Assembly: GCA_943788835.1 (NCBI GenBank)
Contig: CALSRU010000003.1
Span: 1 to 64,000, forward strand
DNA length: 64,000 nt
Source of the DNA: an uncultured Pseudomonadales bacterium
Lineage (GTDB): Bacteria; Pseudomonadota; Gammaproteobacteria; Pseudomonadales; UBA7434
Direction: 5' to 3'
The translations under genes and the position numbers were made by a program. Numbering within the stretch: the stretch's first letter is position 1; each line of letters opens with the position of its first letter. Positions 19,878 to 42,741 of the stretch are shown in pieces. Under the pieces are notes generated by a model. It saw only the letters and a list, made by a program, of their open reading frames with translations, was not told where the DNA came from and searched no databases.

Positions 19878-20114
19878 AGCACGAACGAATGCTAAGCATG
19901 CTGTTTTCTTTGGATGAACTCTTCGTAGGTAATGTTTTTAATGCGGGAGTAAAAGTACGCTAACTGCATCAAAGGCCGGCCTACCAAAAAAATAAATTAA
20001 CGATGCGCAGCAATTAAAAAAACCGCAGTAACAAAATTGAAAAATAAATGTAGTAAGTAGTAAAAGGTTACTTTTATTCACCATCATACGTTTCCAAATT
20101 TAAAAGGCATGACT

Positions 20115-23100
20115 ATGCATATCCGCGATCTTACTAAGTTAGTTGTTGTAGGTTTTTTGTTTTCTTTGCTGGCTGCTTGCGGCGGTGGCGGCACAAGTAG
20201 AGATTGCGCGCCTACTAATCCTAACTGTAATGATCCCGAACAAATAATTAATGTGCTGGGTGCCGATGGTCCAATGGCCAACGCCGTGGTTGAACTGTTT
20301 CGCTTGTCTGATTTTTTGGGTCAGCCGCCAAGCCCGCCAAGCTTGCTTGACGCCGACGCACGAACCGATGCCAATGGTTTGGCAACTTTAACTCTTAAAG
20401 CGGCTGACGAGGATGGCAGCAAACCTGGTGACGGACCTTTCTTGCTGCGTATCAGTTCGAATGGGGGCACTATTGATACAACTACCGGTGAGGCGCCTGC
20501 GATCACCTCGGTGAGCACGATCATTTCTGCTGCGCAATTCGCCAATCGCGCTAGTACGCGTTTTTATGCTACGCCATTTACCTCATTGGCTGTTGAGCGG
20601 GCTAAGGGTCGAGTCATAGCCGCTGGTGGTGATAGTAGTGATACTGCAGCTGTTGAGGCTGAGCTCGCTGCTGCAAGCGCTGAAGTATTGCAGGCAGTCG
20701 GCTTTGGTATGGCTACTGATATTGATATTTTTAATACGCCACCCATCATCGATGAAGGCACCGTGACGCTGGAAGAGCAGCAAGCAGTGGCAGCTTACCG
20801 TATGGCCATTGAAACTTTTGCCGAGGTGGTGGCGCAAGCGGCAAATAGTTTGGGGCAGAGCACGGACATCGTGCTCGAGGCTATAAAAATTGATATTGCT
20901 GACGGGTTAATTGGTGACTCGCCATCTACAATCGAACAAGCCGTTGTAGATGCTGTTAATACCGTTGATTCAGGATATTTAAATGGCAAGCGCCTTCCTT
21001 CTGCTGATGGCTCGGCGACTATTGAAGCCTTGCTAGAGGGCGAGTTTCCCGATGTGTCTGCACCGTTAGCAGGCGCAATTGATAGTGTGCCGGCCGCTGC
21101 CGACTTTGACGGTGATGGATTTGCTAACACCAACGATAGTGCGCCTTATGACCCTGAAGTGTCGGGTGATAGTGATAGTGATGGTGTTGATGATGCCGGC
21201 GATAATTGCTTGTCCGGCTGGAAGGTCCCCGCTGATCAGACCAACCCTGATCAGACCGATACCGATAATGATGGTACGGGTGATATTTGTGACGCCGACC
21301 AGGATGCAGATGGTGTGGATGATGGTCAGGATAACTGTTTAGGAGGTAATGACGTTTTTAATACTTATACCAACACGCCTCAGTCGATTTTTGATCCCAA
21401 TCAGGCCAATAATGATAACGATGCATTTGGCGATATTTGCGATGACGATATTGATGGCGACAATGCGCTGAATATCGACGACGACCAGCCGTTTGATCCC
21501 AGCGTTACTTCCGATAAAGATGGTGACGGTGTCGATGATGTGAGTGGTGATGGCGACAATTGTATCGATACTAGTTTTGGTGGCGCCGACACCTTTAATT
21601 TATTTGCTATTGAAGGTGTTGGAGATGACCGAGTGTTTAGTACCACTGTTGTTCAAGCGTTAGACGATCCAAATCAGGGCGATCGCGATGACAACGGAAT
21701 AGGCGATTTATGTGACAATGATGCCGACGGCGATGGCGTACTGAATGCTCAAGATTCACTGCCCTTCGATCCTAATTCAGCGGGTGATGCTGATAGCGAT
21801 GGGGTTGACGATTCTACGGATAATTGTATTGACGTTTCGTTTGGCGGCTTGCAGGAAATGAACCCTGGCGAATCATTAAGCGACCCCGATCAAACCGATA
21901 CTGATTTGGATGGATTGGGGGATATCTGCGACCTCGACAAAGATGGCGATACTATTCCCAACGACAAAGATCCGAGCGAGCTGGAGAATACGGTGAGTTA
22001 TCACTTTGATAGTTTCTTGCTGCAGCAAAGCAGTGAGGCGGGTTCCTTTAAGCTAGAGACTATCGGTGAAAGCGTCCTGCGTGATACCAATGAAGTGGTG
22101 GTTTCTGCTCCGGCTAACCAGCTGGATTTAGGTTCGGATAGCGTAAATGACAACACGTTTATTGTGAGCAGTGAATACCAAACAGCAGAAAATTCCCTGC
22201 TTTTGGCCGGTGCCGGTTTTGGCGCAGCCGTGGCGACCGAGGTTCAGCAGCCTCCTGAAGCTCGAGCGCTGGTGAATACCGATACGACTATTATTGCTAG
22301 CTACGCTGAGCCTAACCTGACTTTAGATGGTGTTGAGTTATTTCCTTGGGGTAAGTCGAGTTTTGTCGGCACGCAAGGGCTAAGTTTGCCGGTTGTAGGG
22401 GCAGGGCCGTTGGTCGCTGCAAGAAGAGATCAAGGCCTTACTACATTACTCTATACCGACGCGTCTCATGAAAATGCTGATCTAAATGGCAGTTATGGCT
22501 TTGTTGACTTGCGCATCGCTTACGATAGTGCGGTGAGTACCGCTTTGGTTGCTACACAGTCCCGTATTTACACCATGGCGTTTGATGGGGCAGGTTTGGT
22601 CACGCCAGCTAATGTGGGCGTCAATCAATTTGATGCGGTGGTTGGGCAGGGCTCTGCCGGTGACGGGTCTGTTAAATACTCCGAGCCGCAGCTAACGCCG
22701 GCAGGCTATTCAGTGTCGCTTGACGGCGCGGTAACGATAACGGGTACTGATCTCAGAGCAATGACAGATGCCGATGGTGAGTTGATTGCGGTATCGGCTG
22801 ATAACTTGCGCGGTTTTGGTGTGAAGCTGGATGTCACAGCCACGCAAGCTGATCTACTGGCGGGGTCACCTTATGCTCTGCAGGGGCTCTTCATAAACCC
22901 CGCATTAAATAGCCTTACTGCTGGCTCATTAAATAGCGCTGAGCTTAGTTTTGCTGATGTTAATGGATCAATTAAAGCCACCCTAAACTTCGGTGGCTCG
23001 TCCATCAGTACCAGTGATTACAGCGAGCCAGATACGGTCTTACCTAATGTGTCCATTGCAGCACGCAACACACAGCAATCTTCCGATGAAGTGAATCGGG

Positions 23101-23561
23101 CTGTGACGATAACGAATGGTCAGCTTGGGCGTATCGAGATGGGTAGTTATATACCGGGTGATGAAACGCCTCTGAGTGTCGAGCTGGAAGGTTTTTTTGT
23201 GAAGGGTAAAGGTTTGTTGTTGCGTTTTATCGAAACGCCGATTGCTGCCGTGGGTGGTGGGGCTGGTCCTGCGACAACCAATTTTTATTGTGGTGATCCT
23301 GCCGCGGTGGAGTTTGTGCAGCTCAACCCGAATGGTGCTCCGCCCACAGTAATCGTCCCGCAACCCACGAACAACCCAAGTTGTGGCTTTATCATCGTGG
23401 GTGATTCAGGCGCGCTGACGAAGGTCAGTGAGCGTGCGCGCAATGATGTGGGTAACGAGCAGCTCTACTCTGACATTCTGAGTGAGGCTGGAGCTTCGTT
23501 TTTTGAAGATAAAAGCGGCTTTGCTCAGGGAATTGTTTGGGGTATTCCCACCTCACCTTAA
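20115..23561 (+). CDS. Large surface lipoprotein with calcium-binding (thrombospondin type 3-like) repeats
   Basis: 1148 residues from the ATG at 20115; an ATG at 20109 abuts the AAAAGG ribosome site and is less likely. The signal peptide ends in lipobox LLAAC (Cys22), followed by a Gly-rich tether. An N-terminal domain (about 35-320) is shared with the protein at 31989: compare LGADGPMANAVVELFRL and YRMAIETFAEVVAQAA. Residues about 330-640 carry degenerate Asp-rich repeats (for example DSDSDGVDDAGDNC, DTDNDGTGDICDADQDADG) that are typical calcium sites. Cysteines in these repeats suggest disulphides. The C-terminal 500 residues are beta-rich and unrecognised. It has no sorting tail and is probably anchored in the outer membrane. 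Function unknown; an adhesin or surface-layer-like role is only a guess. Confidence 0.85.
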   Translation: MHIRDLTKLVVVGFLFSLLAACGGGGTSRDCAPTNPNCNDPEQIINVLGADGPMANAVVELFRLSDFLGQPPSPPSLLDADARTDANGLATLTLKAADEDGSKPGDGPFLLRISSNGGTIDTTTGEAPAITSVSTIISAAQFANRASTRFYATPFTSLAVERAKGRVIAAGGDSSDTAAVEAELAAASAEVLQAVGFGMATDIDIFNTPPIIDEGTVTLEEQQAVAAYRMAIETFAEVVAQAANSLGQSTDIVLEAIKIDIADGLIGDSPSTIEQAVVDAVNTVDSGYLNGKRLPSADGSATIEALLEGEFPDVSAPLAGAIDSVPAAADFDGDGFANTNDSAPYDPEVSGDSDSDGVDDAGDNCLSGWKVPADQTNPDQTDTDNDGTGDICDADQDADGVDDGQDNCLGGNDVFNTYTNTPQSIFDPNQANNDNDAFGDICDDDIDGDNALNIDDDQPFDPSVTSDKDGDGVDDVSGDGDNCIDTSFGGADTFNLFAIEGVGDDRVFSTTVVQALDDPNQGDRDDNGIGDLCDNDADGDGVLNAQDSLPFDPNSAGDADSDGVDDSTDNCIDVSFGGLQEMNPGESLSDPDQTDTDLDGLGDICDLDKDGDTIPNDKDPSELENTVSYHFDSFLLQQSSEAGSFKLETIGESVLRDTNEVVVSAPANQLDLGSDSVNDNTFIVSSEYQTAENSLLLAGAGFGAAVATEVQQPPEARALVNTDTTIIASYAEPNLTLDGVELFPWGKSSFVGTQGLSLPVVGAGPLVAARRDQGLTTLLYTDASHENADLNGSYGFVDLRIAYDSAVSTALVATQSRIYTMAFDGAGLVTPANVGVNQFDAVVGQGSAGDGSVKYSEPQLTPAGYSVSLDGAVTITGTDLRAMTDADGELIAVSADNLRGFGVKLDVTATQADLLAGSPYALQGLFINPALNSLTAGSLNSAELSFADVNGSIKATLNFGGSSISTSDYSEPDTVLPNVSIAARNTQQSSDEVNRAVTITNGQLGRIEMGSYIPGDETPLSVELEGFFVKGKGLLLRFIETPIAAVGGGAGPATTNFYCGDPAAVEFVQLNPNGAPPTVIVPQPTNNPSCGFIIVGDSGALTKVSERARNDVGNEQLYSDILSEAGASFFEDKSGFAQGIVWGIPTSP

Positions 23562-23593
23562 AGTTTGGGGGCTCGTTTAACGACTGTTATTAA

Positions 23594-23624
23594 AAGGCTC
23601 TGCATTATTGCGGAGCCTTTTTTT
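23594..23624 (+). terminator. Intrinsic terminator of the lipoprotein gene
   Basis: AAGGCTCTGC pairs with GCGGAGCCTT (one G-T wobble) around ATTATT, followed by a run of seven T. Confidence 0.9.
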
Positions 23625-23694
23625 ATAACGCGCACAGAAACTGATTAAAAAGCGAGCGATAGCTACAGAAAAGCCAATAATTACCAGAAATGGC

Positions 23695-23722
23695 TTGCCA
23701 TTAAAAGCGGTTATTGTATGAT
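23695..23722 (+). promoter_or_regulatory. Sigma70 promoter of the GGA-motif sRNA
   Basis: TTGCCA at 23695-23700, a 16-bp spacer, and TATGAT at 23717-23722. The start expected 7-8 nt downstream is G23730, which is the first base of the GGA hairpin. No clear GacA box (TGTAAG-N6-CTTACA) is visible upstream. Confidence 0.75.
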
Positions 23723-23729
23723 TTAAATC

Positions 23730-23925
23730 GTGTTCAGGAAGAACACATTGCCAGGGAGGTGTGGGCAAGCTGCCCACCAGATCCAAGGATAGGATAGGCA
23801 AGGACTGCATGTCTTCTGGCAGGAGGGGGCGCTATGCGCCCCCTCCAACTTGCCGTATAGTTACCTAAGATATATTGCTTTGACAACCAGCCGCAGTGAC
23901 GATGTCCTGCGGCTGGTTTGTTTCG
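23730..23925 (+). ncRNA. Candidate CsrA/RsmA-sequestering sRNA (CsrB/RsmZ-like)
   Basis: About 195 nt between a sigma70 promoter and an intrinsic terminator, with no coding frame. The RNA would begin with a perfect hairpin GTGTTC-AGGAA-GAACAC (23730-23746) that shows GGA in the loop, the classic CsrA/RsmA site. Five further GGA motifs follow: 23755, 23787, 23792, 23802 and 23822. The single-stranded run AAGGATAGGATAGGCAAGGA holds three of them. Two more stems follow (GTGGGCA/TGCCCAC at 23761-23777, and an 11-bp GC stem at 23822-23846). Such RNAs titrate CsrA/RsmA and so derepress its mRNA targets. Family membership is inferred from architecture. No protein partner is encoded nearby. Confidence 0.72.
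23885..23925 (+). terminator. Terminator of the GGA-motif sRNA
   Basis: AACCAGCCGCAG (23885-23896) pairs exactly with CTGCGGCTGGTT (23907-23918), followed by TGTTTCGTG. Because yhbY converges from the right, the same stem may also end yhbY transcription. Confidence 0.85.
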
Positions 23926-23942
23926 TGCTTATTGTTTAGATG

Positions 23943-24242
23943 CTACTTACTGCGCAACAAATTAGATAACTTAGGGTCGGGTTTTTTCGCTGCTCGGTAG
24001 ATTAACAGTACGCCTCCAATGGCTTGAACCAGTTCAGCATGGCTCGCTGCCAGTACTTCTGTGCGGGTAGCCGATTTATCATCTACACGCATTTTAATTT
24101 TAATTAGCTCATGGTCCTCTAGGGCGCGGTGCAGTTCGCCTAGCACCGACGCAGTAAGGCCTTTATCGCCAATAGTGAGCACTGGCTTTAAATCGTGGCC
24201 GATTTGCCTAAGGTGTCTTTTTCTATCGTTACTAAGTGTCAT
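23943..24242 (-). CDS. yhbY: CRM-domain ribosome assembly RNA-binding protein YhbY
   Basis: 99 residues forming a single CRS1-YhbY domain: LSNDRKRHLRQIGHDLKPVL, then IGDKGLTASVLGELHRALEDHELIKIKM with the GxxG-type loop, and the C-terminal VLLIYRAAKKPDPKL. It associates with pre-50S subunits. It is divergent from rlmE, as in many gammaproteobacteria. Confidence 0.96.
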   Translation of the reverse strand: MTLSNDRKRHLRQIGHDLKPVLTIGDKGLTASVLGELHRALEDHELIKIKMRVDDKSATRTEVLAASHAELVQAIGGVLLIYRAAKKPDPKLSNLLRSK

Positions 24243-42352: not shown

Positions 42353-42409
42353 CAATGGCAGTAGTTTGGGCGGTGGAGTTTGCCGCCTCAGAGTAATAAC
42401 CAATATTGA

Positions 42410-42435
42410 CCTACCTGTAAATGTGCACGGGTAGG
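42410..42435 (+). promoter_or_regulatory. Hairpin in the rpsO leader
   Basis: CCTACCTG (42410-42417) pairs with CGGGTAGG (42428-42435) around a 10-nt loop, 37 nt before the rpsO ATG, with a short T-run after it. S15 autoregulates through leader structures in several bacteria, so this is a candidate S15 site or a weak attenuator (inference). Confidence 0.5.
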
Positions 42436-42471
42436 CCAATCTTTTTAATTGCACATTATGAGGAAAAGAAA

Positions 42472-42741
42472 ATGGCTCTTAGTCCAACTGAAAAAGCAGC
42501 AATTGTTAATGACTACCAGCGTGAAGAAGGCGATACCGGATCTCCTGAAGTTCAGGTAGCGTTACTTACAGCCAATATAAATAGCCTGCAAGGGCATTTT
42601 GGTAGTCATAAAAAAGATCACCACTCGCGTCGAGGTTTAATTCGCATGGTAAATCAGCGTCGCAAGCTTCTCGATTATTTGAAAAGTAAAGATACAGCGC
42701 GTTATGCCGAGCTAATTAAGCGTCTTGGTTTGCGTCGCTAG
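42472..42741 (+). CDS. rpsO: 30S ribosomal protein S15
   Basis: 89 residues from the ATG at 42472, preceded by GAGGAAAAG; a longer in-frame start at 42421 would add non-conserved residues. The family pattern is complete: [59 protein letters not shown], ending LIKRLGLRR. Confidence 0.99.

Follow-up and report, generated by a model that had tools for sequence, protein, structure and literature searches.

The sequence between a gene for a large lipoprotein-like protein and the converging gene yhbY, in a 64,000-nucleotide stretch of DNA (the window) from an uncultured Pseudomonadales bacterium, a gammaproteobacterium of probably marine origin, raises the question of whether it encodes an RNA that sequesters CsrA and, if so, to which family such an RNA belongs. 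A sequence-only reading of the window had proposed a unit with the architecture of CsrA/RsmA-sequestering RNAs, made of a promoter, a hairpin at the predicted start, six GGA motifs and a terminator stem, and had suggested that it might be a new or a diverged family. We consider it very probable that the locus encodes a stand-alone Csr/Rsm sponge small RNA (sRNA), most likely forming a genus-level sequence family of its own within a well-known class. It is thus both diverged and new as a sequence family, but its mechanism would not be new.

The predicted transcript (23729..23925, + strand) would start 168 nt past the stop codon of the upstream neighbor and end 18 nt short of the end of yhbY on the opposite strand. 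The upstream neighbor (20109..23561, + strand) encodes a 1150-residue lipoprotein-like protein containing calcium-binding thrombospondin type 3 repeats and has its own terminator at about 23596-23627, which precedes the sRNA promoter in the window and in the relatives; yhbY (23943..24242, − strand) encodes a CRM-domain ribosome assembly protein. In the window the lipoprotein-like gene is an insertion between greA and yhbY; it is absent from two members of the genus (G001 and G005), in which greA adjoins yhbY directly. The position beside yhbY, which the sequence-only reading had found unfamiliar for rsm genes, is not reported for them in the literature searched, where nothing pairs yhbY with RsmZ either. 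Elsewhere in the window, Rfam identifies a tmRNA (1325-1680, − strand) and a ribosomal S15 leader (42407-42528, + strand).

The predicted promoter is of the sigma-70 type (TTGCCA-N16-TATGAT, 23695..23722, + strand), with its −35 box at 23695-23700 and its −10 box at 23717-23722, as had been claimed. It matches the consensus at 10 of 12 positions and is the sole promoter-like site in 23560-24000 (441 nt, both strands scanned); all six genus members that carry the locus retain the TATGAT box, and most of them the TTGC of the −35 box. The first hairpin starts seven nt beyond the −10 box. A protein-coding reading was rejected, as the RNA holds only short open reading frames and the indels among homologs are not multiples of three.

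All six GGA motifs are present (starting at 23737, 23755, 23787, 23792, 23802 and 23822, and spanning 23737-23824), but about five are available for binding because the sixth sits inside a stem (23822-23832/23836-23846). The locus has six A(N)GGA motifs against 1.6 expected, a count reached by one in 1000 dinucleotide shuffles; in a 445-kb sample of the same genome, on which this genome-wide estimate of chance rests, no other place on either strand holds six per 130 nt, making this the densest stretch. The number of GGA motifs in loops is not significant for the window alone, being equaled by 108 of 1000 shuffles, and its significance comes from the sequences of the relatives. The sRNA span folds to an energy far below that of its shuffles (z = −6.5).

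Hairpin 1 (GTGTTC/GAACAC around an AGGAA loop, 23730..23746, + strand, with arms 23730-23735 and 23741-23746) lies where the sequence-only reading had placed it and is the predicted first CsrA site; among the relatives three of its base pairs are changed on both sides and the (A)AGGA loop is invariant. The second GGA belongs to an AGGGA motif (23753..23757, + strand) whose position is not conserved in the alignment of the relatives. Hairpin 2 (ATCC-AAGGATA-GGAT, 23781..23795, + strand) carries the third GGA in its loop and the fourth in its 3' arm; its counterpart in relatives is TACC-AAGGATA-GGTA, with two pairs changed on both sides and 95% of cells paired, and when the window is folded by itself, the structure of lowest energy favors a competing pairing here. 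The fifth GGA lies in a short hairpin (GCA-AGGAC-TGC, 23798..23808, + strand; helices 3-4) whose stem is weak in the window species and whose counterpart in G002 and G004 is CTGTT-AGGGAT-AACAG. The segment 23815..23846 (+ strand) follows, consisting of CTGGCAGGA and an 11-bp stem, GGAGGGGGCGC/GCGCCCCCTCC; this helix 5 has 100% of its cells paired and is orthologous to the terminator stem of the relatives.

BLASTN gave a single homolog (G007, 97% identity), and the others were sought by synteny with yhbY. The locus was thereby traced to a total of five further genus members, of which four are so strongly diverged as to lie beyond the reach of BLASTN. Each of the five homologs is flanked on one side by the 3' end of a surface-protein gene that has its own terminator and on the other by the end of yhbY, so that the unit is conserved in place, as the sequence-only reading had proposed to check. 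The RNA was not found in the genus members G001 (a 70%-complete genome), G005 and G008, and a model built from the genus loci (R1) found no second copy in the window's own genome. Across the diverged syntenic homologs the stems vary by compensation while the AGGA, AAGGAU or AUGGA loops hold, as the variants of hairpin 1 illustrate (GTGTTC-AGGAA-GAACAC, GCATTC-AAGGAT-GAGTGC, GCGTTC-AAGGAT-GAATGC, GTGTTC-AGGAC-GAACAC and GCGCTC-AGGAT-GAGCGT). G003 has two extra tandem hairpins (CAGGAC and CAGGAA) ahead of CAAGGAT, and G002 and G004 carry C-AAGGAU-G, an exact ANGGAX hexaloop on a stem. The pairing test on alignment A3 gave 92% of cells paired, compared with 40-51% in controls in which the structure was slid along the sequences; the 92% is biased upward by the choice of the structure partly by eye on the same sequences. 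The sturdier measure is the number of pairs in which both partners change in one or more sequences, 8 of 23, compared with 2.3 in shuffles and equaled in none of 500. The sequence-only reading had named hairpins conserved without their GGA motifs as the sign of another function, and the four diverged homologs display the reverse, with compensating stems and invariant AGGA/AAGGAU loops.

The 3' end appears to have changed within the genus. A clear tract of six to eight T comes after the stem CTGGCAGGGAGCGC...GCGCTCC in G003 and G010, whereas in the window and G007 the orthologous stem (23822-23846) has lengthened to 11 bp without keeping its T tract, and a second hairpin stands 38 nt downstream. 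This second hairpin (23885..23925, + strand; also in G007) is the 12-bp terminator stem of the sequence-only reading. The stem itself is there and perfect (23885-23896/23907-23918, with a 10-nt loop), but its T tract is weak (TTTGTTTCG), 23885-23918 was not called by the terminator scan, and the orthologous terminator of the relatives is the upstream stem. We regard the 12-bp hairpin as the probable terminator in the window species, and it may also serve the converging yhbY. Because of the lost T tract and the second hairpin, the transcript is predicted to extend to about 195 nt here (with the first strong stem reached at about 120 nt), compared with about 125-160 nt predicted in the relatives.

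No Rfam family is reached at its cut-off by the window RNA or its relatives. When each RNA was searched alone against 4227 families, the family with the lowest E-value was PrrB_RsmZ for the window (12.9 bits, E 0.37), for G002 (16.6 bits, E 0.04) and for G004 (20.7 bits, E 0.0033), in each case over the full model (1-133), and CsrB for G003 (13 bits, E 0.067). These scores stay far under the gathering score of 44 bits for PrrB_RsmZ (RF00166) and the cut-off of 71 bits for CsrB (RF00018), to which the window gave no match. The E-values are individually weak and the four sequences are related to each other; the agreement in family and boundaries is nevertheless telling. In other families of the order, R1 matches GGA-rich, apparently intergenic, RsmZ-like sequences in L139 (E 4.5e-4) and L140 (E 0.002; both per genome), yet in L125, from a relative within the order, it misses the true RsmZ, which suggests that the window RNA belongs to the same class but to a separate sequence family. 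Altogether, four further families within the order contain GGA-rich RsmZ/CsrB-like stretches (L139:1501-1658, L140:1501-1649, L126:1555-1670 and the center of L131), none reaching an Rfam cut-off. Weak R1 matches in L141-L148, L151, L152, L175 and L181 were set aside as mere G+C-rich terminators of other genes, and an RsmY match in L043 (1053-1173) as chance, since it overlaps the end of a neighboring gene.

The resemblance to RsmZ/PrrB of Pseudomonas extends to length, a GGA-loop hairpin at the very start of the transcript, further A(N)GGA hairpins, a GC-rich 3' stem and the full-length though weak covariance match (12.9-20.7 bits); the window RNA differs in its score, in having no GacA box and in adjoining yhbY. 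RsmW, RsmV and other extra Rsm RNAs are likewise intergenic, GGA-rich and outside the classical loci. With CsrB/CsrC of Escherichia and Pf1-Pf3 of Pseudoalteromonas (RF00018 and relatives) it shares repeated hairpins such as TCAGGATGA and, putatively, a promoter of its own, an intergenic terminator and the role of CsrA sponge, but those RNAs have 9-25 GGA motifs (PMC11882849) against five or six here, and the CsrB match is just 13 bits in one relative (G003).

Three other explanations must be weighed against a sponge. The GGA motifs could be incidental to an Hfq-dependent base-pairing sRNA, GcvB-like or other, as the strong 3' stem and a weak GcvB match (E 0.052) in a search of 411 nt would allow; we hold this to be very improbable, since that match, which we take as chance, crosses the wrong hairpins, scores 18.8 bits where the cut-off is 42, and vanishes when the RNA is searched alone, and since a base-pairing RNA would vary its loops with its targets, whereas here the AGGA loops are fixed and the stems covary. 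The position between the two neighbors could instead mark a structured element of an adjoining transcript, either a 3' UTR belonging to the lipoprotein gene or an antisense or 3' UTR element of yhbY. This is the least probable of the three: the lipoprotein gene has a terminator ahead of the sRNA promoter, that promoter is conserved, and the G-U wobbles suit the + strand only (nine G-U cells against one A-C).

An RNA that binds CsrA for a purpose other than titration, for instance to bring CsrA to a target or to work as a riboregulator that depends on CsrA, would fit the small number of usable sites, about five compared with 22 in CsrB and 14 in CsrC (PMC11882849). It seems to us as improbable as the base-pairing sRNA, given that RNAs the size of RsmZ do act as sponges with only a few sites. 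Titration needs more than one motif, since RsmY reduced to a single GGA no longer binds (PMC2375449), and several are retained here.

A sponge RNA at this locus would be transcribed from its own sigma-70-like promoter and fold into short hairpins displaying A(N)GGA in their loops; by analogy with the binding chemistry of CsrA and RsmE, it would capture several CsrA dimers, thereby freeing the mRNAs that CsrA represses or protects. CsrA/RsmE binding is best when A(N)GGAX forms a loop of six nt immediately on top of a stem (PMC4005645), and the SELEX consensus is RUACARGGAUGU (PMC7652899); the five-nt AGGAA and seven-nt AAGGATA loops of the window are predicted to bind somewhat less tightly than a six-nt loop. 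The likely partner is a canonical CsrA with L4 and R44, encoded after lysC (lysC-csrA) in the same genome. A second, more diverged paralog (L173:17713-17895, in C4), 40% identical to the first, keeps R44, has IMREE in place of VHREE and stands alone behind a PLP-dependent sulfhydrylase-like gene.

As for the control of such an RNA, no GacA box (TGTAAG-N6-CTTACA) lies within 500 nt upstream at up to three mismatches, in agreement with the sequence-only reading, and a weak TCTAAG-N6-CTTGCG overlaps the −35 box in G002 and G004 only. The genome does encode a LuxR-type GacA-like response regulator before uvrC-pgsA (L123:381-1025, in C17), the arrangement of gacA in known relatives; its best NCBIfam match is UvrY/SirA/GacA (129 bits, under the cut-off of 280). 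Its receiver domain begins LADRNELV, where UvrY/GacA have two acidic residues, although LIDPHLDG, which resembles a phosphoacceptor site, and the YLSKD lysine are kept. The chemistry of its phosphorylation may therefore be different. The best BarA/GacS match (225 bits against a cut-off of 890) is unconvincing. Because the RNA has no GacA box, is fixed beside yhbY in one genus and coexists with a GacA homolog of diverged receiver, it is conceivable, if on balance rather unlikely, that the sponge has become detached from GacA control and titrates CsrA in response to another signal.

Overall, the locus provides a genus of uncultured Pseudomonadales with a putative CsrA antagonist that lies outside Rfam, for which alignments A1 and A3 could seed a new family. 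Taken with the similar stretches elsewhere in the order, it indicates that the Rfam Csr/Rsm models miss much of this class of regulatory RNAs outside the model genera.
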